Below, one piece after another: positions 23,743 to 40,837 of a DNA stretch of 42,354 nt. The notes beneath the pieces are model-generated. The model ran no database searches. It was not told where the DNA came from and worked only from the letters and a program-made list of their open reading frames with translations. The translations under genes and the position numbers were made by a program. Every line of letters starts with the position of its first letter. Within the stretch, counting starts at the first letter, position 1. Origin of the DNA: Thermoleophilia bacterium (lineage in GTDB: Bacteria > Actinomycetota > Thermoleophilia > UBA2241); contig JADGPQ010000003.1 in the NCBI GenBank assembly GCA_017882325.1, positions 1-42,354 on the forward strand. Direction: 5' to 3'.

Positions 23743-24633
23743 TCAGGCGCGGGCGGCCGCCGCAGGCGCGCCGCGTTCAGCCAGACGGCGCCGCACAAAG
23801 GCCAGGACGATGCCGATCACGAGACCGGCAAGGGCGCCGGCGGCTACGTTGAGCGTCAGGCTCGGGCCGCTGGGCGAATCGGGCACGGCGGCCTCCTGCA
23901 GGATGCGCGGCTGCTCGACCTGCCGGGCGATGAACAGCATCAGTTCGGTCTTCTGGTTGGCCGACTGCAGCGCTTCCTGCTCGGTGGCCGCAGCCTGGAC
24001 GATGGCGACGTAGGGCGCCGAGGCGGCGGCCCTCTCGGCGGCAGAGCCGCCGCCACGGGCGATGGCGGCCAGGCCGACCTGCGCGGCGGTGCTGCGTGCC
24101 ACCGACGCGGCCTGCCCCTTCTTGCCCGTCGCAAGCTGCTGCTCGAGCAAGATGATCTTCTCGTCCACGCCGGGGCTGATGTGCGTCACCAGCACGGCGG
24201 CGAGGGCGTTGGCCGCCGCCGCCGCGCGTTTCTTGTTCGTGTCGGTGACGGTGATCACGACGATGTTGACAACCGAGGTCGAGGTCTTGACCGTCGAGGA
24301 TGGCGTCTCGACTGTGGTCTGCTTGCGCAGCTTCGAGGCACTGATCTTCATGCCGGTCTTCTTCGCCGCCTCGTTGAGGAGCGCCTGGCTGGAAAGCAGC
24401 TGGGTGGCCGCCTTTGAGTTGGAGTTGAGGCCGGCCATCGGGTTGCCGTTGGCGTCGGTGGTCTGGCCGATGTACACCGAGGACGTGGCGCTGTACTGCT
24501 TGGGGGCGGCGAGGGTGACTACACCGCCGACGACCGCGCCGAGGACCACCAGCCCAAGGATGACCCACCAGTTGCGCAGCAGCGTGGCGAACCAGGAGCC
24601 CACGTCGATGGTCGTGGCGTCGTCGGTGCTCAT
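23743..24633 (-). CDS. Wzz-type polysaccharide chain-length regulator / co-polymerase
   Basis: 296 aa. Two membrane helices flank an extracytoplasmic helical domain: N-terminal WWVILGLVVLGAVVGGVVTLA and C-terminal LNVAAGALAGLVIGIVLAFV. The KQYSATSSVYIG segment after the first helix is the Wzz signature. The middle is Ala/Lys/Gln-rich with coiled-coil character. No C-terminal tyrosine-kinase domain is attached. It is the last gene of the minus-strand polysaccharide cluster. The ATG has a good Shine-Dalgarno (TGGAGG) and a GATACT-like box about 40 nt upstream. Confidence 0.87.
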   Translation of the reverse strand: MSTDDATTIDVGSWFATLLRNWWVILGLVVLGAVVGGVVTLAAPKQYSATSSVYIGQTTDANGNPMAGLNSNSKAATQLLSSQALLNEAAKKTGMKISASKLRKQTTVETPSSTVKTSTSVVNIVVITVTDTNKKRAAAAANALAAVLVTHISPGVDEKIILLEQQLATGKKGQAASVARSTAAQVGLAAIARGGGSAAERAAASAPYVAIVQAAATEQEALQSANQKTELMLFIARQVEQPRILQEAAVPDSPSGPSLTLNVAAGALAGLVIGIVLAFVRRRLAERGAPAAAARA

Positions 24634-24708: not shown

Positions 24709-25962
24709 TCATCGCGGCACCCGGTGGTAGTCGGCGCGCACGCCGTCGAGGATCTCGAGGTACTGGTGCGCGAGCGTGCGCCGGTCGAAGTGTTCGAGCA
24801 CGTAGCGGCGGCCGTTGGCGCCCAGGCGGGCGCACTCGGCGCGGTCGCCGACGAGCTCGAGGACGGCTCCCGCCAGCTCGGCGTCGTTGCCGGGCTCGAA
24901 GGCGATGCCGCAGTCCGCTTCGGTGAGCAGCGCACGCGCTTCGCCCTCGAAGCCGAGCAGGATGGGCTTCTCCATGGCCGCGTCCTCGAAGAACTTGCTG
25001 GGCAGGATGGTGGAGAAGAGCTCCTGCCTGCGGAAGTGCACGAGGCAGGCGTCGCTGCTCGCAAGGTAGTCGGGCAGCTCGGTGCGCGGCACGAGGCCGG
25101 TGAACACCACATTGTCGAGGCCGCGGGCGCGCGCCTGGGTCTCGAGGTCGGCGCGCACCGCGCCGTCGCCGACAAGCAGGAAGGCGACTTCGTCGCGGCC
25201 CTGCTCCTTGAGCCGGCGCGCGGCGCCGAGCGCGACCTCCAGGCCGCTCGCCATTCCGATGGTGCCGGCGAAGGTCACGACGAACGTGTCTGCCATGAAG
25301 CCGAGGCGTGCGCGGAGCGCGGGGTCGGGCGGACGCGGCGTGAACAGGTCGGCGTCCACGCCATTGGTGACCACGTCGATCTTGGCCGGCGGCACGCCCT
25401 TGCGGATCATGTTCTGCCGGTAGCCCTCGCCGACGGTGACGATGTGGTCGGCTGCGTCGTAGAGGGCGTGCTCGAACCCCTCGAGCGCGCGGATGACGCG
25501 GCCTTCCTTGAGCGCTCCCACAGCGGTGATCGAGTCGGGCCAGATGTCGCGGATCTCGAGCACCAGAGGGGCGCCGTGCGCCCGCGAGACGGGCACGCCG
25601 GCGCAGCCGGCGAAGAACTGCGGCGAGGTCGCGATGACCACGTCGGCGCGGGGGCGCAGCGCAGCGCCGGCCGCGCCGGCCGCGGCCATGTACGAAAGGA
25701 AGTTGAGACCGCGGCGTACGCGACCGCGGTTGGCGGCGAGGTACGTCCACACGCGCGCCGTGCGGATGCCGTCGATCCATTCCTCCTGGTAAAGCCGATT
25801 GCGGTAGCCCGCGTACACGACGCCGGCCGGGACGTTTGGCGCGCCCGTGAGCACCGTCACGCGCTGCCCGAGGCGCGCCCATTCCTTCGCCATGGCGTGC
25901 ACGCGCGCCGCCGGGGCGTTGTTCTCGGGGACGAAGTAGTGGCTCAGGTAGAGGATGTGCAC
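24709..25962 (-). CDS. GT4 glycosyltransferase (WbuB-like)
   Basis: 417 aa retaining glycosyltransferase, GT-B fold, cytoplasmic. N-terminal MHILYLSHYFVPENNAPAARVH is typical of WbuB/FnlA-linked transferases. The second domain contains FAGTIGMASGLEVAL and the sugar-nucleotide site motif. The E-x7-E motif is shifted (FEDAAMEKPIL). Track ORF is longer because it fuses upstream frame; the real GTG at 25962 is 11 bp after the ATP-grasp stop. Donor and acceptor sugars are not determinable. Upstream gene order links it to PIG-L and ATP-grasp enzymes. Confidence 0.85.
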   Translation of the reverse strand: MHILYLSHYFVPENNAPAARVHAMAKEWARLGQRVTVLTGAPNVPAGVVYAGYRNRLYQEEWIDGIRTARVWTYLAANRGRVRRGLNFLSYMAAAGAAGAALRPRADVVIATSPQFFAGCAGVPVSRAHGAPLVLEIRDIWPDSITAVGALKEGRVIRALEGFEHALYDAADHIVTVGEGYRQNMIRKGVPPAKIDVVTNGVDADLFTPRPPDPALRARLGFMADTFVVTFAGTIGMASGLEVALGAARRLKEQGRDEVAFLLVGDGAVRADLETQARARGLDNVVFTGLVPRTELPDYLASSDACLVHFRRQELFSTILPSKFFEDAAMEKPILLGFEGEARALLTEADCGIAFEPGNDAELAGAVLELVGDRAECARLGANGRRYVLEHFDRRTLAHQYLEILDGVRADYHRVPR

Positions 25963-25972
25963 GGCCGCACCA

Positions 25973-26947
25973 TCACTCGTCCCAGAAGACCTGGTCGTAG
26001 TACCGTACGGAGCGGCGCGAGAAGCGAACCCTGGACTGGGCGAGGGCGACGCCTTCGGCGTCCAGCTCGCCCAGCGCGTACTTGATGCCGAGGTACGGGA
26101 TGATGAAGTCCTCCTGGTACACGAACGTGCTGACGCGCGGATTGATCTCGAGCAGCTTGCCGCCGATCCACTGCACGCTCTGGTAGTAGTCGAGCCCCAG
26201 GTGGCGGACGACCTTTCGCGTGAGCTCCACGAGGTCGGGCCGGTCGATGGTCTTGAACGCCATCGCCAGGCCGGTGAGGAACTCCTCGCGGGTGCGGGTC
26301 TGGTGGAAGACGATCTCGCCCTTGTCGGCAAACAGATCCACGGTGACCTCGGGGGCGTCGACGTACTCCATCAGCATGAGCTCGGGGAACGGTTCGACCC
26401 CACGGAACAGGCCCTCGAACTCGGGCAGCGTCATGTAGCGGTTGATGGGCCGTTCGTGCAGCAGCTCGTGCACGCGGTCGACCTCGGCGGAGAGGATGCG
26501 GAAGCCGCGCGAGCCCTTGGCCACCGGCGGTTTGAAGCACACCGGAACGCTCGGATAGCCGAGCTCGCGGGCTCCGTCCACGAACTCGTCGAGGGAACGC
26601 GGCAGGAGCATCTCAGGCTGGGGCACGGGGATCTCGGCGCACGCCTTGTGCATGAGCGCCTTGTCGCCGGCGGTCACGATGCCGCTCACGCCGTCGGCCA
26701 GCACTGTGGCGCCGAGCTCCTCGAACACGGCGCGCCGACGCGCCACGGTCTCGATCTCGTGGGACGACTGCACGAAGAGCAGGTCTGGCCGCACGTTCTC
26801 GATCACCGTCGCCAGCGCGGGGACGTAACCGGGCGAGGCGCCGGTGGGCACGAGGTCGAAGCCGTCACAAAGGAAGCGGCCGACGGCGTCCGGGCGCACG
26901 TCCACGCCGTGGATGATGATCTCGCGCTCGCCGTTGGCCTTGAGCAT
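25973..26947 (-). CDS. ATP-grasp ligase (CarB/PylC-like), start uncertain
   Basis: 324 aa from the only standard in-frame ATG, 26947. ATP-grasp motifs: VCFKPPVAKGSRGF (ATP lysine/loop), MEYVDAPEVTVDLF, and LLEINPRVST with the metal-binding Glu and Asn. However, the frame stays open upstream and encodes LKLALTAVGCPGASTLIRM, the first beta strand and glycine loop of the pre-ATP-grasp fold. There is no ATG, GTG or TTG there, but CTG at 27019 has GAGGT 6 nt upstream. The real protein probably starts at that CTG and overlaps the PIG-L stop. Such enzymes form an amide or peptide-like bond from a carboxylate. Substrate unknown. Confidence 0.82.
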   Translation of the reverse strand: MLKANGEREIIIHGVDVRPDAVGRFLCDGFDLVPTGASPGYVPALATVIENVRPDLLFVQSSHEIETVARRRAVFEELGATVLADGVSGIVTAGDKALMHKACAEIPVPQPEMLLPRSLDEFVDGARELGYPSVPVCFKPPVAKGSRGFRILSAEVDRVHELLHERPINRYMTLPEFEGLFRGVEPFPELMLMEYVDAPEVTVDLFADKGEIVFHQTRTREEFLTGLAMAFKTIDRPDLVELTRKVVRHLGLDYYQSVQWIGGKLLEINPRVSTFVYQEDFIIPYLGIKYALGELDAEGVALAQSRVRFSRRSVRYYDQVFWDE

Positions 26948-27006
26948 GCGGATGAGCGTGCTCGCGCCGGGGCAGCCGACGGCGGTGAGGGCGAGCTTGA
27001 GCGGCG

Positions 27007-27645
27007 CTAGAGGATCCAGCGGTAGACCTCGAACACCTCGGCGAACTCGCAGCCGATGTTGATGCCGCGCGTGAGGGCCACGTTGCGGATGTAGTCCTCG
27101 CGCGTGTAGTTGCGATGGCCCTGGCTCTCGTAGCAGGCCAGGGCCTCCACCTTCTTCTCGACGTGGCGCTCCTCGAGCCGCACGTAGGCCTGGTGTGCGA
27201 AGTTGAGGTTGTTCCAGGGGATCTCGTAGGCGAGGACTGTGGTGCGCTTGAAAGCGCGCAAGCCCTCCTCGGCGACCGTCTTGTGGTCCTGGTGGAGGTC
27301 GATCAGGGCGGGCAGCATCACGCAGTCGGGGTCGAGTTCCTGCTGGAGGACGATCATCTCCTCGAGGATGTCCTGGCGCACGGTCGGAAAGGTGCGCACC
27401 TCGAAGTCGTAGACCTTGAGGTCGGTCTCGGGGATGCCGAGAACGCCCGTCGCGGCGCGGACCTCGTGCTTGAGGACGTCTTTCGGAAAGCCCTCCGGGA
27501 CGCTCTTGGCGGCGGTGCTGAAAGCGGCATAGGTGACCTTGACGCCGTTCTCGATGAGGCGCGCCATGGTGCCTCCGCAGCCGAACTCACCATCGTCGGT
27601 GTGCGGCGCCAGGACGAGCACGTTGTCGAAGCGTTCGATGCTCAC
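27007..27645 (-). CDS. PIG-L / LmbE-family N-deacetylase
   Basis: 212 aa. LmbE enzymes are zinc-dependent deacetylases of GlcNAc-type conjugates. The metal motif APHTDDGEFGCGG is present, and HQDH supplies the third ligand. Length is normal. GTG start with GGGGAG 8 nt upstream. Placed among glycosyltransferases and an ATP-grasp ligase: N-deacetylation could expose an amine which the ligase then acylates, a speculation from gene order only. Confidence 0.88.
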   Translation of the reverse strand: MSIERFDNVLVLAPHTDDGEFGCGGTMARLIENGVKVTYAAFSTAAKSVPEGFPKDVLKHEVRAATGVLGIPETDLKVYDFEVRTFPTVRQDILEEMIVLQQELDPDCVMLPALIDLHQDHKTVAEEGLRAFKRTTVLAYEIPWNNLNFAHQAYVRLEERHVEKKVEALACYESQGHRNYTREDYIRNVALTRGINIGCEFAEVFEVYRWIL

Positions 27646-27703: not shown

Positions 27704-28837
27704 CTACGTAAGCCCGGCGCAGAGCGAACCGTAGAAGTCTACCAAATCGCCCGCGACGACCTCCCAACAGAAGCGCCGTTGCACGGCGCGACGGCCGCGC
27801 ACGCCCATCTGAGGGAGCGTCTCGCGATTGGCCAGTAGGCGCCGCAGGCCGCGCAGGTGGCCGTCGACGCCGGGTTCGACGGCGAGACCGCATTCCTCGA
27901 GGCGCACGAGCTCGCCACGCCGCGGCAGGTTCGTCACCAGCGCCGCGAGACCCATGGCCATGCCCTCGAGCAGTTTGGTGGGGATCGTGGGGTACTTGTA
28001 CTGCACCGTGGGCACCGCGGGGATCCAGACCACGTCGGCGGCCGCGAGGTAGCGCGGCAGCTCGGCGGGTGGAACGCGGCCGAGCAGCTTCACGCGGTCG
28101 TCGAGCCCGGCGGCGAGGCGGCTGCGTGTCTCGTCCTCCATGTCGGGCGAGGCGAACGTGCCGCCGAGGTAGAGCACGGCCTCGTCGGCGGCCAGCTGCT
28201 CCATGACGTCGAGCATCAAGGCGCAGCCGCGGCCGCGAGACAGGCTGCCGACGTAGGCGAGCTTGAGGCGCGGATCGGCTGCCAGGTCTGGCAGCGGCTC
28301 CGCGCCGTCGAACCGTTCGAAGCGTGGGTAGTTGGGCAGCACGAGGCGGAGCTTCGGCGTGCTGCCCAGCGCGTCGAGCTGCTCGTCGGTGACCACCACC
28401 ACGCCGCTGCCCAGCGCCGCGAGGCCCTTCTGGGCGGTGGCGGTGGCCTGGGAGGCAAACGGCCGCGCCTTTTCAGGGATGTAGTGCTTGCCCGCCACCG
28501 CCTCGGGCACGTACTCATGCATGTCGTAGACGAGGCGCGGGATGAACGCTTTGACGGCGGGGAACAGCGTCAGCAGCTCGGGGTCGTGCACATGCAGTAC
28601 GTGCGGCCGCAGCGCGCGCAGGGAATGGGCGATCTCGATCGAGTCCAGGAACCGCGTGCTGCGGCCGCGCTCGGGCAGCGGCGCCAGAAGCACGCCGTGC
28701 TCGTCGCGACCACGCTCGGCGCCCGGCGCCAGGTACAGGACGGCGTAGCCGGCCTCGGCCAACGTGCGGCACTCGCGCTCGTGGATGCGAGGGTCGTCGG
28801 GCTTGTGGACGACGGAGAGGTGGACGACGCGGATCAC
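27704..28837 (-). CDS. GT4 glycosyltransferase
   Basis: 377 aa. N-terminal VIRVVHLSVVHKPDDPRIHERECRTLAEAG is a common start for GT4 surface-polysaccharide transferases. HVHDPELL and YDMHEYVPE follow. The second Rossmann domain shows LKLAYVGSLSRGRGCALM and the donor-site TIPTKLLEGMAMG. The ORF in the track runs upstream into another frame; the GTG at 28837 overlaps the deacetylase-like stop by 4 bp. Donor not predictable. Confidence 0.87.
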   Translation of the reverse strand: MIRVVHLSVVHKPDDPRIHERECRTLAEAGYAVLYLAPGAERGRDEHGVLLAPLPERGRSTRFLDSIEIAHSLRALRPHVLHVHDPELLTLFPAVKAFIPRLVYDMHEYVPEAVAGKHYIPEKARPFASQATATAQKGLAALGSGVVVVTDEQLDALGSTPKLRLVLPNYPRFERFDGAEPLPDLAADPRLKLAYVGSLSRGRGCALMLDVMEQLAADEAVLYLGGTFASPDMEDETRSRLAAGLDDRVKLLGRVPPAELPRYLAAADVVWIPAVPTVQYKYPTIPTKLLEGMAMGLAALVTNLPRRGELVRLEECGLAVEPGVDGHLRGLRRLLANRETLPQMGVRGRRAVQRRFCWEVVAGDLVDFYGSLCAGLT

Positions 28838-30354
28838 GTGGCGCGCCCGTCGAGCCCCGGGGCGGGTAACCCGTTCATCCCCGTGGCCTCTCGCCAGCGG
28901 GTCACCACCGCGCCCGCGGAGGTCGCCCAGGCGCCCTCCCTTAGCGCCCGGTCCACGAGGCGCCAGTACACTCCGTCGTACCCGCGTGACACGCGGCGGT
29001 CGAAACGGTTGTTGTGCCACAGGATGCTCACCGCGCCGCCGCTGCGTGCGACGTTGTCGAGCACCGCGGCCGCCGCGCGCTCCGCGCCGGCCGCGTCGAG
29101 ACCGCGGTAGTGCGGCTCCTGCAGGGTGCCGTCCATGACCGTGAGCGGCAGCTCCACCAGGTCGAGCGGGCGCTCCTCGCCGAGGTGGTACGGCCGGAAC
29201 GGGAACGAGCACCCGCAGCGGAAGCCCTCGTGCTCGGCGAACGCGAGGCTGCTGTCGTAGCTGAAGCCAGCCTGCTCGAGGAGGGGCAGCGTCTCGTGGT
29301 AGAGGCAGCGCAGGTAGTGATAGCGGATGCCGCGCACCTCCGTGCCCGCCTGCCCGGCCAGCAGGCTGCGGTCGTCGCTGAGCGGAGCGAGGCCCAGGCG
29401 GTCGCTGTCGTTGCCGTGCAGACCGATCTCGCGGCCGTGGCGCCGCAGAAGCGCAAGGGCCTGCGGCCTGAGCTTGCGGTAGGTCTCGGGCTGGTTGCCG
29501 TCGGAATGGTGCGTGTGGCGGGCGATGACGAAGAACGTGGAGGAGATGCCGCGGGCGTCCTCACCGCCGAGGAGCTGAGGAAACGTCCAGAAGGGATCGG
29601 TGCGCCGCGGCAGGTGGCGGGTGAACCAGTCGCCGAGATCGCCGAGCTCGCGGCGCAAGACGGCGCCGTTGCCGTGACGTACGGCGCGCGCGCTGCGGTA
29701 GCCCGTCGCGGCAAAGCCGCGCGCGGTCCAGCGCCACAGGTTGTCGAGATCGTGAGTGAGGGCGACGGCGTGGCCTGCCCCAGCCTTTCCGGTGTCCCAC
29801 ATCCAGCCGGCCGCCGGCTGCGGCTCGAGGCCGAGCGCGACGAGGCGCGGCGCGAGCACGGCGCGCAGCAGTGCCACATAGACGTCGACGGCCGGGGCGT
29901 CGATGCGGAGGGCGGGGTTGACGGCGAACATGCTGGCCGCGTACGGAAGGCGGCCATGCTTGTCACGCTCGCCGGTCGTGCGTTCGTCCCAGCAGGCCAG
30001 AAGGGCGAAGGCCGAGGCGACAAGGTCGAACGGGACGGCGAAGCCGGCGCCGGGATCGGCCGGAAAGGCGGCCACGGCGGAGCCGTGGCCGCACTCGCGT
30101 GTCGCGAAGGCGTCGGCCGGCAGCGCCCTCTCGGCCGCAAAGATCTCCAGCGCCGCGGCGCTGCAAGGGATGGTCGGCACGCCCTCGACCGGCGCCGCGG
30201 CGTAGGCGAGCGCGGCGCCAGCGGACAGCGCCGGGTCGCGCGTCAGTGCGGCACGACGCCCCAGCGGCGCCAGCATCGTGTCGAGGGCCCACCTGGCGCG
30301 CGGCAGAAAGCCGTCTGGCGCGTCGACGAAGACCTCGAGGTCGGACAGGCTCAT
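28834..30354 (-). CDS. Polysaccharide deacetylase-like (NodB-type) protein
   Basis: 506 aa, cytoplasmic by sequence (no signal peptide). An N-terminal domain (about 190 aa, VFVDAPDGFLPRARWALDTML) resembles a widespread DUF found before polysaccharide deacetylases in surface-glycan loci. The catalytic half has ALTHDLDNLWR (metal-binding Asp), HGNDSD (metal-binding His, with one spacer residue unusual), and a closing VSILWHNN. The metal site is nearly complete, but HGN replaces the usual H-x-x-x-H spacing, so activity is probable but not certain. Tightly packed between the ATP-grasp pair and a GT4 gene. Confidence 0.8.
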   Translation of the reverse strand: MSLSDLEVFVDAPDGFLPRARWALDTMLAPLGRRAALTRDPALSAGAALAYAAAPVEGVPTIPCSAAALEIFAAERALPADAFATRECGHGSAVAAFPADPGAGFAVPFDLVASAFALLACWDERTTGERDKHGRLPYAASMFAVNPALRIDAPAVDVYVALLRAVLAPRLVALGLEPQPAAGWMWDTGKAGAGHAVALTHDLDNLWRWTARGFAATGYRSARAVRHGNGAVLRRELGDLGDWFTRHLPRRTDPFWTFPQLLGGEDARGISSTFFVIARHTHHSDGNQPETYRKLRPQALALLRRHGREIGLHGNDSDRLGLAPLSDDRSLLAGQAGTEVRGIRYHYLRCLYHETLPLLEQAGFSYDSSLAFAEHEGFRCGCSFPFRPYHLGEERPLDLVELPLTVMDGTLQEPHYRGLDAAGAERAAAAVLDNVARSGGAVSILWHNNRFDRRVSRGYDGVYWRLVDRALREGAWATSAGAVVTRWREATGMNGLPAPGLDGRAT

Positions 30355-30373: not shown

Positions 30374-31588
30374 TCAGACGTCGGCCCGGGCGCGCGGCTG
30401 CCTGGTGACTACCTGCCGCGCGACGGCGTAGGCGTTCAGCAGGCCGGGCAGAGGATCGCGCAGGGAGTGCAAGCCATCGATGCGCGTGCCGCGCAGTGAG
30501 CGCACATACTCGCCGGCGTGCCGCTGCCTCTTCGCGATCTCGAGCAGCGCGAGGGGCACGTCCTTGTTCGCGACGATCCACTTGACGCCGTCGGCTTGGC
30601 GTGGCGCCATGAACGGCTCGCCGATGGCGTCGCGGTAGGCGGCCAGTGAAAGGTTCACGCCGCAGGCGGCCGCGAGTCCGTGCCACTTCCAGTGCCGGGC
30701 GTTGACCTCCATGAGGCAGTAGCGCCCGTCGCGCGGGTCGCGCTTGAACTCCACCTGGCTGACGCCGTGGAAGCGCAGCTCTTGCAGCAGGCGCAGCGCG
30801 GCCTCGGCGAGGTCGGCGTCCCAGGCGCTCACGCCGGCGAGGCAGCTGCCGCCGGCGTGCGGGTACTGGCGCAGCTTGTGGCCGGTGAACACGGCCAGCG
30901 GCCGCGAGCCGGCATCGAGGTACGACCCGACCGTCCAGAGCTCGGTCTCGCCGCCGGGGATCCTCTCCTGCAAGATCAAGGTACCGAGATCGTCGACCTT
31001 GTCATAGATGCGCTGCAAGTCGGCGGGCGACTCCACGTCGAGGATGTGGCGGTGAAAGCGCAGCTTGAACGCCAGAGACTCGACGGGCTTGAGCACGGCC
31101 GGGAAAGGCATCTCGCCGGCGGCGGCCTCGAGCTCCGCGCCGGAGCTCACGAAGACGGTCTTCGGCGTGTCGACGCCGGCGCGCCATGCAGTCTCCATCT
31201 GGGCGCGCTTGTCGTGCACCCGCTGCATCGCGTCCCAGCGGGAAAAGGGGACGATGAACCAGGGCTCGAGTCGCTCGGCGTGGCGCGAGAGCGGCCAGAT
31301 GTACTCGTCGTGGCTGGGGAAGACGACGGCACGTTGTGGCAGCCGCGCGCCGAGCTCCTCGAGCCAGGTGACGAGGGCCTCCTCGTCGGCGAGCGGGTCG
31401 GGGCAGACCATGCCGCTGGCGTAGCGCGAGCGCAGGCCGAGGGCGCCGGGGTCGGCGTCGAGGGCCAGCACCGGCACGCCGTGGCGACCGAGGTCGCGGA
31501 CGATGTCGAGGCCGCAGGCGTAGCTCACCTGGAAGACGGCGGCGGGGGCCTGCGCGGCCGCCGTCTCGACGAAGCGCGAGAACCTCAA
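30374..31588 (-). CDS. ATP-grasp carboligase (COG3919-like), copy 1
   Basis: 404 aa predicted ATP-dependent carboligase. Motifs: AVLKPVESLAFKLRFHRHI (ATP site), QERIPGGETELWTVGSYLDA, VEFKRDPRDGRYCLMEVNARHWKWH (metal-binding Glu/Asn). The start is TTG at 31588 sharing 4 bp (TTGA) with the stop of copy 2, with GGCGAGG upstream. The track ORF starts too early. Closely similar to copy 2 over its whole length. Family members sit in capsule/exopolysaccharide clusters and are thought to join an amine to a carboxylate; none is identified here. Confidence 0.85.
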   Translation of the reverse strand: MRFSRFVETAAAQAPAAVFQVSYACGLDIVRDLGRHGVPVLALDADPGALGLRSRYASGMVCPDPLADEEALVTWLEELGARLPQRAVVFPSHDEYIWPLSRHAERLEPWFIVPFSRWDAMQRVHDKRAQMETAWRAGVDTPKTVFVSSGAELEAAAGEMPFPAVLKPVESLAFKLRFHRHILDVESPADLQRIYDKVDDLGTLILQERIPGGETELWTVGSYLDAGSRPLAVFTGHKLRQYPHAGGSCLAGVSAWDADLAEAALRLLQELRFHGVSQVEFKRDPRDGRYCLMEVNARHWKWHGLAAACGVNLSLAAYRDAIGEPFMAPRQADGVKWIVANKDVPLALLEIAKRQRHAGEYVRSLRGTRIDGLHSLRDPLPGLLNAYAVARQVVTRQPRARADV

Positions 31589-32805
31589 GGCGCCTCGCCT
31601 TCGTGCGGGCGCCCCTTGCGCGTGATCATGGTGCGCAGCTGCCTCGCGGTAAGCAGCGCTCCCGGCAGAGGGTCCTTGAGCGAGTACAGGCCGTCGACCC
31701 TGACGCCCCGGTACGATCTCAGCCACGGGCCGAGCTTCTCGTCGCCCCTGCGCCAGCGGGAGAACGCGTCGCGCGCGTCCGTGAGCGACACTACCCACTT
31801 GAGACCGTCACTCTGGCGTCGCGCCACGTAGGGGTCGCCGATGGCATCGCGGTAGGCGGCCAGCGAGAGGTTCACGCCGCAGGCGGTGGCCAGGCTGTGC
31901 CACATCCAGTGACGCGCGTTGACCTCCATGAGGCGATACCGGCCGTCGCGGGGGTCGCGCTTGAACTCGACCTGGCTGACGCCGTGGTAGCCGAGCTCGT
32001 GCAGCAGGCGCAGACCTGCCTCCGCGAGCTCGGGCACCCAAAGGCTCGCCGCCATGCTCACGTGGCCGAAGCGCGGGGGGTGCTGGCGCAGCTTGTGACC
32101 GGTGAACTGCGCCAGCGGTCGCGACCGGGCGTCCAGATACGACCCCAGGGTATACAGCTCCTCGTCGCCGCCCGGGACGATGTCCTGCAACATCAGCGTG
32201 CCGCAGTCCCGCACCTTGTCGTAGACGCGCAGCAGCTCGTCGCGCGAGCCGATCTCGAGCACGTGCCGGCGAAAGCGGATCTTGAAGGCCAGCGACTCGA
32301 CCGGCTTGAAGATCGCCGGGAAGCCGATCTCGTCGGCGCCGCGGGCGAGGTCGTCGTCGCCGTCCACGAACACGGTCTTCGGGATGTCTACTCCGACGCG
32401 CTTGGCGGTCTCGAGTTGCTCGCGCTTGTCGTGTAGCCGCTGCATCGTCTCCCAGCGGGAGAACGGGATGAGGTACCAGCGCTCCAGGCGCTTCGCGCTC
32501 TTGGAGATGGGCCAGATGTATTGGTCGTGCGTCGGGAAGAGCACGGCGCGCCGCGGCAGGCGAGGCCCCAACTGTTCGAGGAACATGATGAAAGCTTCCT
32601 CGTCTTCGCGCGGGTCTGGGCATACCATCCCAGCGGCGAGCCGCGAGTGCAGGCCCAAGGCGCGCGGATTGTCGTCCACGGCGAGCAGCGGGACGTCGTC
32701 GGCGGCGAGGTCGCGGATGATGTCGAGCCCATTGGCCCAGGAGACTTGTAGCACGACGGCCGGATGACGCTGTTCCGCTGCTTTCACAAACTTGTCGAAG
32801 CGCAT
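31585..32805 (-). CDS. ATP-grasp carboligase (COG3919-like), copy 2
   Basis: 406 aa paralogue of the next gene. N-terminal QVSWANGLDIIRDLAADDVPLLAVDDNPRALGLHSRL aligns with the copy 1 N-terminus; AIFKPVESLAFKIRFRRHV and VEFKRDPRDGRYRLMEVNARHWMWHSLA match copy 1 nearly word for word. Both keep the ATP-binding Lys and the Glu/Asn pair, so neither is an obvious pseudoenzyme. The ATG at 32805 has AAAGG upstream and lies 10 bp after the GT4 stop. Probably tandem gene duplication with specialisation on two substrates or two halves of one linkage. Confidence 0.86.
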   Translation of the reverse strand: MRFDKFVKAAEQRHPAVVLQVSWANGLDIIRDLAADDVPLLAVDDNPRALGLHSRLAAGMVCPDPREDEEAFIMFLEQLGPRLPRRAVLFPTHDQYIWPISKSAKRLERWYLIPFSRWETMQRLHDKREQLETAKRVGVDIPKTVFVDGDDDLARGADEIGFPAIFKPVESLAFKIRFRRHVLEIGSRDELLRVYDKVRDCGTLMLQDIVPGGDEELYTLGSYLDARSRPLAQFTGHKLRQHPPRFGHVSMAASLWVPELAEAGLRLLHELGYHGVSQVEFKRDPRDGRYRLMEVNARHWMWHSLATACGVNLSLAAYRDAIGDPYVARRQSDGLKWVVSLTDARDAFSRWRRGDEKLGPWLRSYRGVRVDGLYSLKDPLPGALLTARQLRTMITRKGRPHEGEAP

Positions 32806-32815
32806 GGTGGACCTT

Positions 32816-33991
32816 TCAGGGCGCCGGGCGCAGGACCTTTTCGTAGACGCCCAGCGTGAGCTGCGCGTTGCGATCCCAGCTCAGGGCCAGTGCGGCCGCC
32901 TTGCCGGCTTCGCCCACGGCGGCCGCGGCCACGGGGTCGTCCAGCACCCTCGCGATGATACCCGTGAGTGCATCGGCGTCGCGAACCGGCACAAGGTAGC
33001 CGCTCTCACCGTCTGCGATGAAATCCTCGGGACCTTCGCCCTTTCCGGCGATGACCGGCGTGTTCTGGGCCATGGCCTCGGTGTATACGAGGCCGAACGC
33101 CTCGTCCCAGCTGGGCAGGGCGAAGACATCGGCGCGGGCCATGAGCGCGAGCACGCGCTGGTGCGGTACGCGGCCGAGGAAGTGGACGGCATCGGCGACG
33201 CCGTCGGCTTCGGCCTGGGCGGCAAGCGCGCCGCGCAGCGGGCCGTCGCCGACGATCGCGAGGTTTACGCGACGGCCGCCCGCGCGCAGCCGCCCGACGG
33301 TCGCGACCAGCTCGCGCAGGCCTTTGCGTTCGATCAGGTAGCCGACCGTGAGTACCAGCGGCGCGCCCGGCAGGTAGTCGGCCGCCGGCTCGACTTCGCG
33401 CCCGAGCCCCGTGGTGCCGTTCAGCACCACGGTCAGGCGCTCGGGCGCGGCGACCCCGGCGAGCAGTCGCGCGACGGCGCTCGAGTTGGCCATCACCGCG
33501 TCGGCGTGCGCGAGCACGGCCTTGGCGCGGCGTTCGACGGCGCCGCCCAGACGAAAGTGCTGGTACACGTCGGCGCCGTGCACGGTGACGACGTACGGTA
33601 CACCGAGGTCCGCGGCCAGCCGCTGGGCGAGGGCGCCGTCGGGCAGCGCCTGGTGGGCGTGCAGCAGGTCATAGCCGCCGCTGCGGAGCGACGGCAAGCG
33701 GCGCACCCTGTAGTAGGCGAGGTCGCCAAGGCGGGCGAAGAAGTGGCGCCTCGGGATCTGTGGCACGCGGGGGTACTCGGCGACGACTCCGTCGCGCACG
33801 GCCTCCCGCGGCTTCTGGCCACGTCGCTTCTGGCGCGGGTCGCGCCACAGGATGCGCGGCACCCACGGCGTCGGGGAGAGCACCTGGGCCTCGACGCCCA
33901 GCTTGCGCAGCGCGAGGACCTGCTCGTGCACGAAAAGGTGTCGTTCCACGCCGGGAGACGGGTAGAGGTGCGAGACGACGAGGACTCTCAC
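32816..33991 (-). CDS. GT4 glycosyltransferase
   Basis: 391 aa. N-terminal VRVLVVSHLYPSPGVERHLFVHEQV, then VVTVHGADVYQ and, in the second domain, LTVGYLIERKGLRELV, VGDGPLR and FALPSWDEAFGLVYTEAMAQ, with the classic E-x7-E donor motif. The 977-aa ORF of the track is a fusion with an antisense-like upstream frame and is rejected. True GTG at 33991 overlaps the polymerase stop by 4 bp. The YEKVLRPAP C-terminus is normal. Confidence 0.9.
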   Translation of the reverse strand: MRVLVVSHLYPSPGVERHLFVHEQVLALRKLGVEAQVLSPTPWVPRILWRDPRQKRRGQKPREAVRDGVVAEYPRVPQIPRRHFFARLGDLAYYRVRRLPSLRSGGYDLLHAHQALPDGALAQRLAADLGVPYVVTVHGADVYQHFRLGGAVERRAKAVLAHADAVMANSSAVARLLAGVAAPERLTVVLNGTTGLGREVEPAADYLPGAPLVLTVGYLIERKGLRELVATVGRLRAGGRRVNLAIVGDGPLRGALAAQAEADGVADAVHFLGRVPHQRVLALMARADVFALPSWDEAFGLVYTEAMAQNTPVIAGKGEGPEDFIADGESGYLVPVRDADALTGIIARVLDDPVAAAAVGEAGKAAALALSWDRNAQLTLGVYEKVLRPAP

Positions 33992-35526
33992 GCGCCGGCA
34001 CCCGCGCCTTCGACGCCCCGGCCGGACTCGGGCAGCGCCGGGGCTCGCTCGGCCGCCGCCAGTCGCGACCGCGAGATGACGGCCAGGCCCAGCCCGTAGA
34101 GGATCCATACCGGGGCGAAGCCGACTGAGCTGCTGGGGCCTACGGCGCCGATAGTCCATCCCAGCAAGGCGAGCACCGTCCCGCTGGCCAGGTATCTGGT
34201 GAAGGCGTCGGGATCGCGCCGCGCGATGGGCCACAGAGTGAGGAGGAGCAGCAGAAAGAAGACCAGGTGCAGGGCGAAGCCCACCAGCCCGCCGTCCGCG
34301 TAGGTCTCGAACCACCAGTTGTGCAGGTTGGAGATGCCGAGGGCGTTGATACCCGACGAGATGATGCCCTCCGCCTGTCCGGGGCCGACGCCGAGGAGGA
34401 AGCTCCCGCCGGCGATCTCCAGTCCGCGGCTGGTCAGGTTCGTGCGAATGTCGCCCGAGCCCTTGCCGGCCTGCGCCTGGCTGAGCAGCGCTTCCAGGCG
34501 AAACTGGCGCAGCATGTCGCTCTGTGAGTTGTTGAACAAGAGGTAGGCGGCGGCGACCACGAGCACGATGGCCACGGTGGCGCCCAGGAGCTTGCCGGTG
34601 CGCGCCGAGAGGCGAGCGCCCAAGTGCCGGAACAGGAAGGCGGCGGCCACCGTGGAGACCCCGGCGGCCACGAGGCTCGAGCGTGAGCCGGTGCGCACGA
34701 AGGCGGCTGCGCCGACCAGGATGAAAAGCGCGTCCAGCGCGAGCCACGACGCCTTGCGCGTAAAGAAGAACGCACAGAGCATGAACGGCCAGCAGAAAGC
34801 CAGATACGTGGCGAGGTCGTTCTGATTGACGAAGACGCTGGTGACGGCGTAGGGCTGGGAGGTCACCGCGTTGCTGAGGCGCGAGGTCGGCAGGCGGATG
34901 CCGAAGCGCGCCTCGAGCAGAGTGAAGCCGACGACGAAGCCGTACGCAAGAATCAGTGCGTAGCCGAGCCAGCGGAGGCGACGGCGGCTGCCTCCGGCGG
35001 CCGCCGTCGCCAGTACGAGCGCGACCATGGTAACGACGATAGCGATGTAGTTGAAGGCGATGGCCTTCGACGGGGACCAGGCGATCCCCACGAAAAGCCA
35101 CGCCAACCACAGCGCGAGTGGCGACAACACGTCCGTCGCGGCGAAGGGCAGCGGAGCGCGCCGCACGACAAGATACGTCACCCCCACCGCGACCACCAAG
35201 GCCAGAACGATGCGGAACAGGAATACCTGGGGGAAGCCGGGGATGGCGAACGATGGGCCGAGAAGGGCTGCCGCGGGCAGCACCACGAGGCCCACCGCGA
35301 GGAACGCGCCGACTTCGACACGGGCGAGGCGCCCCCGATACAGGAGGACCAGCGCTACCACGGCGAGCACGACCAGCAGAACCAGTCCCTGGAGCGGTCG
35401 GCGCGTGAGGGCTACAGCGAAGAGGACGGTGAGGCCTGCACCGGCGGCGATGAGCCCGACGTCGGCGCGGGTGAAGCGACGTCTCGTGGGGGCTGCAGCC
35501 GTTGGTGGTCCGGCGCCGGCGCTCAT
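33988..35526 (-). CDS. O-antigen ligase / Wzy-like polymerase (WaaL/Wzy superfamily)
   Basis: 512 aa integral membrane protein with roughly 10-12 hydrophobic helices. A long extracytoplasmic loop holds FRLEALLSQAQAGKGSGDIRTNLT, with FLLGVGPGQAEG and ISNLHNWWFETYADGGLVGF. The latter, with HN in the middle, is the Wzy_C signature. It would polymerise or ligate repeat units outside the membrane. ATG at 35526 with TAGGAT exactly 6 nt upstream and no Shine-Dalgarno, so this gene begins a leaderless transcript that runs down to the Wzz gene. Confidence 0.88.
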   Translation of the reverse strand: MSAGAGPPTAAAPTRRRFTRADVGLIAAGAGLTVLFAVALTRRPLQGLVLLVVLAVVALVLLYRGRLARVEVGAFLAVGLVVLPAAALLGPSFAIPGFPQVFLFRIVLALVVAVGVTYLVVRRAPLPFAATDVLSPLALWLAWLFVGIAWSPSKAIAFNYIAIVVTMVALVLATAAAGGSRRRLRWLGYALILAYGFVVGFTLLEARFGIRLPTSRLSNAVTSQPYAVTSVFVNQNDLATYLAFCWPFMLCAFFFTRKASWLALDALFILVGAAAFVRTGSRSSLVAAGVSTVAAAFLFRHLGARLSARTGKLLGATVAIVLVVAAAYLLFNNSQSDMLRQFRLEALLSQAQAGKGSGDIRTNLTSRGLEIAGGSFLLGVGPGQAEGIISSGINALGISNLHNWWFETYADGGLVGFALHLVFFLLLLLTLWPIARRDPDAFTRYLASGTVLALLGWTIGAVGPSSSVGFAPVWILYGLGLAVISRSRLAAAERAPALPESGRGVEGAGAGA

Positions 35527-35538: not shown

Positions 35539-36798
35539 TCAGCGCGCTCGTGGATGATCGCACGGCCGGAGGTGGCCGCCGACTGCCCCGCCGCCCAGGC
35601 CGTCGAGCAGCGCCGCGAGCTCCGCAGTGAGGCGCCCCAACTCGTAGCGCTCCAGGGACGCCGGGTCGGCGAGAGGGGCGCTGCCGTCGCGGGCTGCGCG
35701 CACGAAGGCGGCGAGCGCCTCCGCCATCTGGTCGTCGGGCAGCACGCACGTGCCGCCGCCTACCTCGGCGAACAGTGATCGGGCGGCGGAGCCGGCCGGC
35801 GAGATGGCGAAGACCGGCCGGCCGGCCTGAAGGTATTCGAAGACCTTACTCGACATGCTCTCCGGGCGGCGACCGTTCACGAGCAGCAGGCCGCCGGCCG
35901 CGCGCTGGCACCCCAGGGCGCGGGTGAGCGGCACGAGCGGCTCGACGCGCACGCGGTCGCCGAGGCCGAGTCGGTCGGCGTCGGGCCTCACGCGGCTCTC
36001 GTCAACGCCGACGAAGAGCGCCTTCACGTCGGGCGGTAGGGCCGCGAGGGCGGTGAGAAACGCGCTCACCTGCTGTTCGCGCCCGTACAACCGTCCGGTG
36101 TGCACAAGCCAGAAGCCGGCGCCGAGAGACACGTCGTCCGGCGTCTCGGCGCGGTCGAAGCCGTTGGGCAGCACGTGAGCGCGCCCTGCGATCCACGGAT
36201 GGCGGGCCACCAGGTCGTCGACGATCGGCTGGTTGACCGCCGTGACGGCAGCGGCGCGGTGCAGCGCCCATGCCTCGAGGCGGGCGTGGGCGGCCCTATG
36301 CGCCGCGGTGGGATACGTGCGGAACTGATAGGTGGACCAGGGGTCGCGGTAGTCGGCCAGCCAAGGGAGGCCTGTCATGCGCGCCAGCGTGGCCGCCACG
36401 AGGTGCACGCTGGGCCTCGGCGAGCTCGAGAAGATGGTGTCGAAACGCTCGCCATGCAGCAGCGCGCGCCCTTTGAGCACAGCCGGCCCGACCCAGGTGA
36501 CGTAGGGATCGGGCACGCTGACCCAGCTGTTGACGCGAGTGCTGCGCTTGCCGCCGCCGAGCAGCTGCTTCGGCCACGGCACAGGAGCGCGGACGACGCG
36601 GACGGCGGGCGGCTCTGCCGCCGGCCCGGCGGCCTTCGCCGCCAGCACCGTCGGCTCCCAGCCGTGTTCGGGCAGGTGGCGCAGAAAGCGCACCACGCGC
36701 GTGGTGCCGGCGCTCGCCATGGGCGGGTACGGATTGGCGACGACGAGCAGTCTCTGGAGGGGCGAGCCGGCCTCGCCTGGCTCTTTGCCTCTGTCCAC
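35539..36798 (-). CDS. GT4 glycosyltransferase
   Basis: 419 aa. N-terminal LQRLLVVANPYPPMASAGTTRVVRFLRHL, then WLADYRDPWS (a hallmark of GT4 transferases), VLPNGFD, LVHTGRLYGREQQ and KVFEYLQAGRPVFAI near the donor site. GTG at 36798 has no clear Shine-Dalgarno; a start nearer LLVVANP is possible. A TAGAAT box on the same strand about 80 nt upstream may drive it. It precedes the polymerase gene by 12 bp. Confidence 0.87.
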   Translation of the reverse strand: MDRGKEPGEAGSPLQRLLVVANPYPPMASAGTTRVVRFLRHLPEHGWEPTVLAAKAAGPAAEPPAVRVVRAPVPWPKQLLGGGKRSTRVNSWVSVPDPYVTWVGPAVLKGRALLHGERFDTIFSSSPRPSVHLVAATLARMTGLPWLADYRDPWSTYQFRTYPTAAHRAAHARLEAWALHRAAAVTAVNQPIVDDLVARHPWIAGRAHVLPNGFDRAETPDDVSLGAGFWLVHTGRLYGREQQVSAFLTALAALPPDVKALFVGVDESRVRPDADRLGLGDRVRVEPLVPLTRALGCQRAAGGLLLVNGRRPESMSSKVFEYLQAGRPVFAISPAGSAARSLFAEVGGGTCVLPDDQMAEALAAFVRAARDGSAPLADPASLERYELGRLTAELAALLDGLGGGAVGGHLRPCDHPRAR

Positions 36799-36880
36799 GC
36801 GTCGACGTGCTTGCAGGTCCGTGGTTCCTCCGGAGCCGGTGGGAGCGGTCTCGCGCGGCGGCGGCCGCCGTCGGGTGGCT

Positions 36881-36886
36881 ATTCTA
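36881..36886 (-). promoter_or_regulatory. Possible -10 box for the GT4 gene at 36798
   Basis: Minus-strand TAGAAT in the 160-bp gap between two minus-strand genes. It would give a 5' leader of about 75 nt, unlike the leaderless boxes elsewhere in the window. Confidence 0.35.
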
Positions 36887-36935
36887 CCAGAGGGGCGTGA
36901 CCGTCAGCCTCGCGTCGGCGGCTCGGCGGCGCACG

Positions 36936-36956
36936 GTGCGGCTCGGCCAGCCGCAC
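36936..36956 (-). terminator. 8-bp hairpin just after the unknown Rossmann gene
   Basis: GTGCGGCT, loop CGGCC, AGCCGCAC, beginning 3 bp beyond the stop of the minus-strand gene. No U-tract. Suggests that gene is its own transcription unit. Confidence 0.5.
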
Positions 36957-36958
36957 GG

Positions 36959-38077
36959 TCAGCGCCGCGGAGCGCCGAGGTCCTTGGGCAACTGCTCGGC
37001 GTGCGCTTCGGACGCGGCGAGCTGCTCCGCTGCCAGCGGTGACGAGCCGCGGCGCCGGGCGCGGGTCATGACCTCGCCGACCTTGAGCCCGGCGGTGTGC
37101 AGCTCGATGAGCGGCTGCGGCAGGAGGTGGTGGCGCGCGCCGTCGTCGGGCCAGCTGCGCAGGCCGGCGCTGGCCAGGCTGCGCCGGTCGACTTCACCGG
37201 CGAGGCCGACCACGGCGAGGTGGGGGGCGGCGGCCGCAAGGGTGGCCGCGTCGATCCAGCCGCCGGGCCCGACTGTGCGAGCGTCCGGCTGGGCGGGGCA
37301 CAGCACCAGGGCGTCGGCCTCGGCGAGACGGCCGCGAGCGGCCGCGTCTCCGAGGCCGTCCCCGACCTTCTCGCCCCCGTAAAGGCTGACGCGGCCGGCA
37401 CCCTCGGGTGCCGCGACGAGTACGCGGGCGCCGGCTTGGGCCAGGCCGCGCGCGACCTTGGCATACGCCGCTCCGTCGCCGGCCACGAGCACAGTGGCGC
37501 CCACGACCTCGACGCCCAGCCGGAGAAGTCCCCAAACGGCCTCCATGGCGAGGTAGCGGAAGAGGTCGATGTCGTCCTCGTCCACGCCGGCCACGGCGAT
37601 GGCTCCTCTGCGGCACGTGGCGACGTCCACGTCGGCGGTGCGCCAATGAACGACGCCGCGCATGAGGGTCACCGCGGCCGTGTCGGCGACATTGCGCACG
37701 ATCGCCTCGTCGATTGGGCGCACCCCGGGGAGGTCGGTCACGATGTCCACGCCGGCGAGCGGCGCCTGCAGGCGCGTCGGCAGGACGTGCACACGGTCCT
37801 GGATGCTGCCGAGCCGGGCGAGATACTCCGTCTGCTGCTCCGCCTCCTTGCGCGACGCCTGTACGCTGTCGCGGGCCACGGCGTACACCTCGTCCGCTCC
37901 CGCCAGAGCGGCGATCGCCGGCGTGATGCGGCGGTAGCCCACGCCGGCCTCGGTGAGCACGCGGAGACCGTGCAAGTCCAGCCTGTGCCGCTCGATGGAA
38001 CGCCGGATGAGGCGCAGCACGTGGAGCCCGGGAAAGGCCTCGTCGCAGGCGAAGCGCGGATCGGGGAGGTCGTTCAT
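36959..38077 (-). CDS. Two-domain Rossmann-like protein of unknown function
   Basis: 372 aa, no signal peptide or membrane helix. Not recognised. The N-terminal half (about 35-150) reads like a nucleotide- or SAM-type alpha/beta fold: LRVLTEAGVGYRRITPAIAALAGADEVYAVARD. The second half (from about 190) starts with a Rossmann strand-loop-helix, VVGATVLVAGDGAAYAKVARGLAQAGARVLV, without a strict GxGxxG. The overall layout (substrate domain plus nucleotide domain) recalls 2-hydroxyacid dehydrogenase or SAH-hydrolase architecture, but no catalytic residues are assignable. ATG 38077 with TAAGAT 6 nt upstream, so leaderless. It has its own terminator, and sits next to glycan genes. Confidence 0.75.
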   Translation of the reverse strand: MNDLPDPRFACDEAFPGLHVLRLIRRSIERHRLDLHGLRVLTEAGVGYRRITPAIAALAGADEVYAVARDSVQASRKEAEQQTEYLARLGSIQDRVHVLPTRLQAPLAGVDIVTDLPGVRPIDEAIVRNVADTAAVTLMRGVVHWRTADVDVATCRRGAIAVAGVDEDDIDLFRYLAMEAVWGLLRLGVEVVGATVLVAGDGAAYAKVARGLAQAGARVLVAAPEGAGRVSLYGGEKVGDGLGDAAARGRLAEADALVLCPAQPDARTVGPGGWIDAATLAAAAPHLAVVGLAGEVDRRSLASAGLRSWPDDGARHHLLPQPLIELHTAGLKVGEVMTRARRRGSSPLAAEQLAASEAHAEQLPKDLGAPRR

Positions 38078-39235: not shown

Positions 39236-40819
39236 TCACTGACGCGGCGTGACCTCGTAGATGTTGGAGGTCGGCGTCTTGGAGATTGGCCGCACGTCGT
39301 AGTGCTGCGCGAGGATCCCCAAGATCTGCAGGCGGTTCCGGTGATCGTTGCCGCCGCCCATGAAGGCGCCGTAGAATCCGTCGTCCCCTATGCGCGACGA
39401 CCAGGACTGCGGGCGCGCCAGCACCTGCGTCTGGGTGCCCGCGAACACCGGCGTGTCGCCCGGCACCGCCCAGAGAAAGCGTGGGAGCTCGCCGGGGCCC
39501 ACGTTGTCCATCAGGATGGCGCTCGCCGAGCGCAGCCGGTCGAGCGGCACGCGCTGCTGGCTGCCGAAGAGCAGCGGCGTCGCGAGGGTCGTGGGCAGGA
39601 GAACGAGCAGGCAGAACGCGGCCACCAGCAGTGGCCGCCAGCGCGGCCAAGGGGCGAACGCGAGCAGCGGTAGGAACGCGAAGAAGGGCCAGGCCATCGC
39701 CAGGTAGCGGCTGCTGAGCAGCGGCGGCCGACTGAGGAAGGCGAGGTTCTGCAGGCAGACGCCGCCGGCCGTCACGACGAGGAAGAAGAGGACGGTCCAC
39801 CATCCGGGGCGGGCGCCGCGCACGGCGGCGACGACGGCGCGGCGCGAGCGCGGCACGAGGAGGGCAACAACGACTGCCGCGAGCACGGCGAAGGCCACGG
39901 GTGCCCCTACGGGCCGGGGCAGCCCGGCGGCCCTCCCGAGCGTCTGGCCGATCGAGGCGGCTTTCTCGTACAACACCTGACTAGTGAAGCCGCCTATGCG
40001 AGAGCCCTCACGCCCGAAGGCGTGTACGAAGCCGGGCGTGAGGGCAGCGGCCAGCACGACGCCGGCGGCGATGCCGGCGACGGCCGGCGCCCACGGCCGG
40101 CGCTGCTCCGTGCGCCGCGAGATCAGGTGCGCGGCGACAGCGAAAACCACGCCGCCGAGCAGCAGCAGGATCGTCTGGTAGTGCGTCATGAGCGCCGCGC
40201 AGGCGGCGGCGGCGAGCCAGACTGTGTCCGGCCAGCGTCGCCGCTCCCCCGGCGCCGTGACCCGCACCAGACCCCAGACAAACAGCACGGTGAACAGCGC
40301 CACGAGGTCGTATTGGCGCGTGAGTATCGAGATGCTCACCACCGCTGGGCTCAGCGCCCACGCGAGCACCACGAGCGACGACTCCAGCCGCTCGAAGCCG
40401 AGGGCGCGCGCCAGCCCGAACAGGGCGAGCATCGTCAGCGGGGCGAAGACGAGATTGAGCGCCGGCCCAGCCCAGTGGTGCATGCCCGTAAGCATCAGCC
40501 ACAGGTGGAGCAGGTAGAAGTACAGCGGCGGGTGAACGTCGTAGGCCGCCAGGTCCGGGCCGATGTGGGCGAGGTCGCCGAGCTTGTCCGACTGCCAGTA
40601 GTACTGCCAGGCGCTGGCCGGCACCCAACGGCCGCTGAGGCCGCTCTGCATGGCCTTCTCGAAGGCCCCGAGGCGGCCCGAGGCCGTGGCGTAGGACCAC
40701 GCCTCGTCGTGCTGGACGTTGGGATTGGCGCCCATCGCGTCGACGCGCACGCCGAGTCCGACGAGCACGGCCACGACCAGCGCGACCACGGCGAGCCTAT
40801 CGAGGCGTCTGCCGCTCAC
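39236..40819 (-). CDS. GT-C membrane glycosyltransferase (ArnT/PMT-like, GT39/GT83)
   Basis: 527 aa with about 10-12 membrane helices. The N-terminal VQHDEAWSY and YDVHPPLYFYLLHLWL are hallmarks of polyprenyl-phosphate-sugar-using transferases, with the catalytic Asp of HDEA. The C-terminal tail (about 390-527) is a soluble extracytoplasmic domain ending IYEVTPRQ. It would transfer a lipid-linked sugar outside the membrane onto a polymer or protein. GTG start with weak Shine-Dalgarno, 18 bp after the MBOAT stop, so co-transcribed. Confidence 0.86.
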   Translation of the reverse strand: MSGRRLDRLAVVALVVAVLVGLGVRVDAMGANPNVQHDEAWSYATASGRLGAFEKAMQSGLSGRWVPASAWQYYWQSDKLGDLAHIGPDLAAYDVHPPLYFYLLHLWLMLTGMHHWAGPALNLVFAPLTMLALFGLARALGFERLESSLVVLAWALSPAVVSISILTRQYDLVALFTVLFVWGLVRVTAPGERRRWPDTVWLAAAACAALMTHYQTILLLLGGVVFAVAAHLISRRTEQRRPWAPAVAGIAAGVVLAAALTPGFVHAFGREGSRIGGFTSQVLYEKAASIGQTLGRAAGLPRPVGAPVAFAVLAAVVVALLVPRSRRAVVAAVRGARPGWWTVLFFLVVTAGGVCLQNLAFLSRPPLLSSRYLAMAWPFFAFLPLLAFAPWPRWRPLLVAAFCLLVLLPTTLATPLLFGSQQRVPLDRLRSASAILMDNVGPGELPRFLWAVPGDTPVFAGTQTQVLARPQSWSSRIGDDGFYGAFMGGGNDHRNRLQILGILAQHYDVRPISKTPTSNIYEVTPRQ

Positions 40820-40837
40820 CGGCTCAGCGCATCACAT

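Follow-up and report, generated by a model that had tools for sequence, protein, structure and literature searches.

What do two adjacent, closely similar ATP-grasp ligases, a third ATP-grasp enzyme and two deacetylases do in a polysaccharide operon? The DNA analysed here (the window, 42,354 nucleotides) is a single contig from a Thermoleophilia-type draft genome of 3.0 Mb; among named relatives the nearest, assembled from lake metagenomes, show 82–92 % protein identity. The original prediction, made from the letters alone, was that such an operon points to a glycan with amide-linked substituents. We consider it probable that the enzymes first N-deacetylate sugars of a Wzy-polymerised cell-surface polymer and then attach a new substituent to them by ATP-dependent amide ligation.

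Layout of the operon

The operon lies on the minus strand, with its genes in the order GT4a, Wzy, GT4b, AG1, AG2, PDA, GT4c, PIG-L, AG3, GT4d and Wzz:

35539–36798, minus strand: GT4a glycosyltransferase (Glyco_trans_4_4, 59.5 bits)
33988–35526, minus strand: Wzy polymerase or O-antigen ligase-like membrane protein (Wzy_C, 50.7 bits; TuaE model, 67.8 bits, below cut-off)
32816–33991, minus strand: GT4b glycosyltransferase (Glycos_transf_1, 121.5 bits; TuaC model, 130 bits, below cut-off)
31585–32805, minus strand: AG1, COG3919-like ATP-grasp ligase, first copy, 406 aa (CPSase_L_D2, 33.4 bits; AlphaFold2 ATP-grasp fold)
30374–31588, minus strand: AG2, tandem paralogue of AG1, 404 aa, TTG start (61 % identity to AG1; CPSase_L_D2, 28.9 bits)
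28834–30354, minus strand: PDA, VimE-like CE4 deacetylase with N-terminal DUF7033 (37.5 bits)
27704–28837, minus strand: GT4c glycosyltransferase (Glyco_trans_1_4)
27007–27645, minus strand: PIG-L N-deacetylase (PF02585, 58.1 bits)
25973–27019, minus strand: AG3, ATP-grasp ligase of the PRK12767/ATPgrasp_Ter group (PF15632, 51.9 bits)
24709–25986, minus strand: GT4d glycosyltransferase, probably starting near 25962 although the start is not fixed (Glyco_trans_4_4, 75 bits)
23743–24633, minus strand: Wzz-type chain-length protein (PF02706, 45.7 bits)

The stop codon of one gene overlaps the start codon of the next at Wzy/GT4b, at AG1/AG2 (where the TTG start of AG2 and the stop of AG1 form TTGA) and at PDA/GT4c (where they form GTGA). 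The presence of Wzy, Wzz and four GT4 proteins, all components of a Wzy-dependent locus, points to a Wzy-type polysaccharide locus, and the two deacetylases and four GT4 transferases named in the original prediction were all located. A Wzx flippase had no match in the window or in the fragmentary host assembly (328 contigs, 92 % complete). Three relatives (L034, L042 and L043) have a Wzx-type flippase of about 605 aa between GT4a and a conserved unknown gene, a position at which there are only 160 bases here (36799–36958), through either a real loss or an assembly gap. The 372 aa protein that flanks the operon at 36959–38077 is conserved across the family (63–78 % identity) and has no Pfam or NCBIfam matches; upstream of the operon and on the same strand are genes for an MBOAT acyltransferase and a PMT-type mannosyltransferase (39236–42226). 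DegT aminotransferases, sought as a clue to the sugar, do occur, but none is inside the operon and they are therefore uninformative as to sugar identity.

The ATP-grasp enzymes and their deacetylase partners

The adjacent paralogues foreseen at 30374–32805 are both present as ORFs, with 61 % identity across 400 aa (E 2.4e-165), and a search of the genome assembly with AG1 finds two matches only, AG1 and AG2. Both contain the near-identical motifs that had been noticed, of which VEFKRDPRDGRY is exact except for its last residues (RYRLMEVNARHW in one and RYCLMEVNARHW in the other). The ATP and metal residues, which were also expected to be kept, are putatively K127, K167, E280, N296 and R298, assigned by position rather than from a ligand-bound structure; these are invariant across 25 relatives, as is E294 in 24 of the 25, and the two lysines and acidic/Asn metal ligands fall in alignment columns conserved in AG1, AG2 and AG3. 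Across both copies dN/dS is 0.14–0.23 (0.19–0.20 for AG2), which suggests purifying selection on each, and for this reason both look functional. Fixed differences between the AG1 and AG2 groups are few, with none at putative catalytic residues, and we therefore claim no difference in specificity.

In the profile libraries used, which contain no COG3919 model, the ligases match CPSase_L_D2 above its cut-off and PRK12767-type models far below theirs; as a literature search term, 'COG3919' had no match. Sequence searches of the PDB with the ligases gave weak superfamily matches only. The structure prediction that had been proposed as a check gave a confident AlphaFold2 model of AG1 (pLDDT 92.8) with an ATP-grasp fold, and a fold search with it matched hundreds of ATP-grasp structures in the PDB (best E 8e-17), which places AG1 and AG2 in the ATP-grasp superfamily. 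The nearest structures are biotin carboxylase, PurK, DdlB and an L-amino acid ligase, each with about 15 % identity.

PDA has a score of 121 bits against the VimE model NF053580, the cut-off of which is 440, and since this equivalog cut-off is not reached we regard it as a VimE-like protein and not as VimE. It has no match to a Pfam deacetylase (Polysacc_deac_1 included) and none in a sequence search of the PDB. Its AlphaFold2 model (pLDDT 91.2) has a CE4 fold, the best PDB matches being the polysaccharide deacetylases 3rxz, 3s6o and 1z7a, and residues D202, D204, H313, H346 and H447 are invariant; the predicted NodB-type fold together with the metal and catalytic Asp and His residues argues for a CE4 polysaccharide deacetylase. 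In several relatives PDA is fused to GT4c in ORFs of 780–943 aa without stops, including a second family (Miltoncostaeales-type) in which the single ORF is about 780–790 aa long and one genome of the window's own family with a fusion of 943 aa. What looked like an AG–PDA fusion in G068 (L040) is an assembly gap and was discarded, since the join crosses an unknown base (X) and shifts into non-homologous sequence.

The third ATP-grasp enzyme was correctly called as different and as adjoining PIG-L. AG3 belongs with ATPgrasp_Ter, and in profile comparison with AG1 and AG2 it gives a superfamily-level match only (20 % identity, 99 % probability); its invariant residues are K120, K163, E218, E291, N293 and R295. 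Its frame has no ATG, GTG or TTG upstream of 26947 and the gene apparently begins with the CTG at 27019, a position at which the close relative L032 has GTG. PIG-L keeps the His-Asp-Asp motif, with H15, D17, D18 and H121 invariant, and at 56.6 bits against the bacillithiol BshB1 model (cut-off 182.5) it does not reach the BshB threshold. Among AG loci PIG-L and AG3 co-occur (Fisher p 1e-5, uncorrected for relatedness), and they form a second deacetylase–ligase pair.

Conservation among relatives and history of the tandem

An AG homologue is present in 104 of 249 Thermoleophilia genomes. When 40 neighbourhoods were searched with the window proteins, the whole operon was found in the window's family; a second family, with members labelled Miltoncostaeales, has a core of Wzy, GT4b, AG, PDA, GT4c, GT4d and Wzz without PIG-L or AG3, and a third has AG, PDA, PIG-L and AG3 near one another in other orders. 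The order and strand of AG and PDA are conserved while the remainder of the locus varies between families, and the constant element is one COG3919 gene directly before a VimE-like CE4 deacetylase with DUF7033. The locus set comprises 79 named loci, 72 with enough flank and 44 with full flanks. PDA follows AG within 300 bases and in the same orientation in 41 of the 72, a count in which five AG–AG–PDA tandem loci were scored as near and not immediate, and it is somewhere nearby in 35 of the 44, the other nine having no nearby deacetylase; these counts are not independent, since the loci are related and come partly from the genomes of the 249-genome survey. In a sample of the phylum DUF7033 occurs in 10 of 297 genomes, eight of them Thermoleophilia, and in all eight (8/8) AG is just upstream of the DUF7033 gene.

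The neighbourhood search that had been suggested as a check thus bore out the pairing with a deacetylase, which recurs, but not the two-copy feature as a defining one: most relatives are single-copy and the duplication is found in one family, in which three genera retain both copies and others one. The AG2 group (8 rows, support 100/95) is nested inside the window's family in a 45-protein tree, while the sequences on the AG1 side do not form a single resolved clade; that the gene was duplicated near the base of this family and then lost in some members is likely, though not proved. Since the tandem is confined to one family, we regard it as a recent, lineage-specific elaboration.

Several other arrangements were seen. 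The second family has a Bac_transf sugar transferase gene and a PylC-like_N ATP-grasp gene before Wzz (L062, 14050–15697), the latter apparently a second ligase in that operon too, and in other Thermoleophilia the neighbourhood includes ATP-grasps whose C-terminal domain is of the L-amino acid ligase type. AG homologues without a nearby deacetylase include those of Deinococcus and Levilinea; in Levilinea (Chloroflexota; L148, 10001–16200, and L139) three such ATP-grasp genes are clustered, together with a gene for an ABC-type ATPase and further genes of polysaccharide type. A contig labelled Holophagaceae (L083) carries a closely similar AG homologue (50 %) but no other gene of the operon, by transfer or misbinning. 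Four lake metagenome records labelled Bifidobacterium breve (L095, L097, L117 and L143) contain typical Thermoleophilia operons, and these labels look wrong.

Proposed function and comparison with known systems

A deacetylase with a ligase is the pairing expected for swapping an N-acetyl group for another amide, and the idea of amide substitution gains support from gene context, because each ATP-grasp type travels with a deacetylase, the VimE-like CE4 enzyme with AG1/AG2 and PIG-L with AG3. We propose that the product is a Wzy-polymerised surface polysaccharide whose amino sugars would be re-acylated inside the cell. PDA would strip the N-acetyl group from an amino sugar bound to a nucleotide or a lipid, AG1 and AG2 would use ATP to activate a carboxylate as an acyl phosphate and join it to the freed amine as a new amide, and GT4c, fused to PDA in relatives, would probably transfer the modified sugar. 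The PIG-L and AG3 pair would act on another sugar or position, and the tandem ligases would most likely serve two donors or carry out two additions in succession. The scheme is supported by the observed gene content and conservation, by active-site residues and folds, and by linkage; we infer the reaction, its order and its substrates, and it is a guess that an amino acid or short peptide supplies the carboxylate.

Amides of uronic acids are common in bacterial polysaccharides, and the ATP-grasps could instead activate the carboxylate of a glycan uronic acid and join it to ammonia, an amino acid or an amino alcohol, so that the sugar is the acid partner and the deacetylases act elsewhere in the pathway. 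The resemblance of Wzy and GT4b to the teichuronic acid TuaE and TuaC models, below cut-off, is in keeping with this, and the linking sugar of Porphyromonas gingivalis is a uronamide (PMC7468200). However, profile searches identified no uronic-acid pathway gene in the operon, and this reading, which we think unlikely, does not explain why each ligase is so closely paired with a deacetylase. Less likely still, the ATP-grasp genes could serve to make a small peptide or some other precursor that has no connection with the deacetylated sugar, and be neighbours only through sharing a large polysaccharide locus: ATP-grasp ligases do use many substrates, and there are AG homologues with no deacetylase around them, but the AG–PDA order persists between families whose loci otherwise differ, and the stop/start overlaps suggest coupling. 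That the AG enzymes are carboxylases, adding a carbamate by N-carboxylation of an amine as PurK or biotin carboxylase would, is very improbable: biotin carboxylases and PurK do rank above L-amino acid ligase and DdlB in the fold search, but these top matches are superfamily-level (TM about 0.6, 14–18 % identity), the fold comparison identifies the superfamily but does not separate ligase from carboxylase, and sugar carbamates would be expected to be unstable unless further processed.

For deacetylation followed by amide ligation, a close parallel is the Wbp/Vim pathway of P. gingivalis and Tannerella forsythia, and the combination of enzymes, which the original prediction could not name, resembles that pathway with an ATP-grasp in the place of VimA. 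In P. gingivalis, VimE has been proposed to take off the acetyl group at C-2 and VimA to attach Ser or Gly; when VimA was swapped the amino acid changed with it, so that VimA decides between the two (PMC7468200). Both systems have a VimE-like CE4 deacetylase with DUF7033 adjoining the proposed acylating enzyme within a polysaccharide locus. They differ in that the acylating enzyme is an ATP-grasp ligase here and the GNAT/FemAB-type VimA there, the VimE score here is far below cut-off, and Wbp genes are absent from the operon, as in profile searches is any VimA-type acyltransferase. G356, an actinobacterium outside the Thermoleophilia, has a GNAT-type (Acetyltransf_6) gene before its VimE-like gene with a one-base overlap, apparently a VimA–VimE arrangement, and in Thermoleophilia an ATP-grasp occupies the slot of this GNAT; the replacement idea has as its basis this one non-Thermoleophilia locus and one paper. 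The G356 GNAT protein, as a single divergent query, has no match in six Thermoleophilia genomes, the GNAT of L161 matches no named NCBIfam VimA model, and in G281, the other non-Thermoleophilia locus, no GNAT-type gene adjoins the VimE-like gene.

It is possible, and we suggest it tentatively, that deacetylation followed by ATP-dependent ligation is a general route by which Thermoleophilia make aminoacylated or peptidylated exopolysaccharide, with an ATP-grasp ligase having replaced VimA beside a VimE-like deacetylase and the tandem adding two different or successive residues. If so, a rarely cultured class of lake and soil bacteria makes amide-substituted surface polysaccharides by a route undescribed in the literature we found, an ATP-grasp can substitute for VimA, and an abundant ligase group without an assigned role gains a function; its enzymes would be on offer for installing amides on amino sugars, and the pairing of deacetylase and ATP-grasp could serve as a rule for predicting such glycans from genomes.

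Other known systems share parts of this scheme. In the Clostridioides difficile type B flagellin cluster (CDR20291_0244–0247) the ATP-grasp gene CDR20291_0245 is required for a peptidylamido sugar of a surface glycan (PMC5207246), although this ATP-grasp is of another family (PF13535), the glycan is flagellin-linked and the description of the cluster reports no deacetylase. Mycothiol and bacillithiol biosynthesis likewise use a GT4 and a PIG-L deacetylase followed by amide ligation, of cysteine in that case; there the ligase is MshC or BshC, while the operon has an ATP-grasp ligase and a setting of polymer synthesis with Wzy and Wzz. COG3919-like genes in Priestia megaterium pBM600 and in Cytobacillus adjoin PIG-L and GT4; the Priestia gene belongs to the same COG3919/PRK12767 carboxylate-amine ligase group, but at 30 % identity and without a CE4 deacetylase, Wzy or a tandem copy. 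ATP-grasp aminoacyl ligases had earlier been tied to modified surface sugars by gene-neighbourhood work (PMC4000134), and it is because of these parallels taken together (VimE/VimA, G356, C. difficile, that neighbourhood work, and Priestia and Cytobacillus) that we favour deacetylation and amide ligation as the function of the operon.
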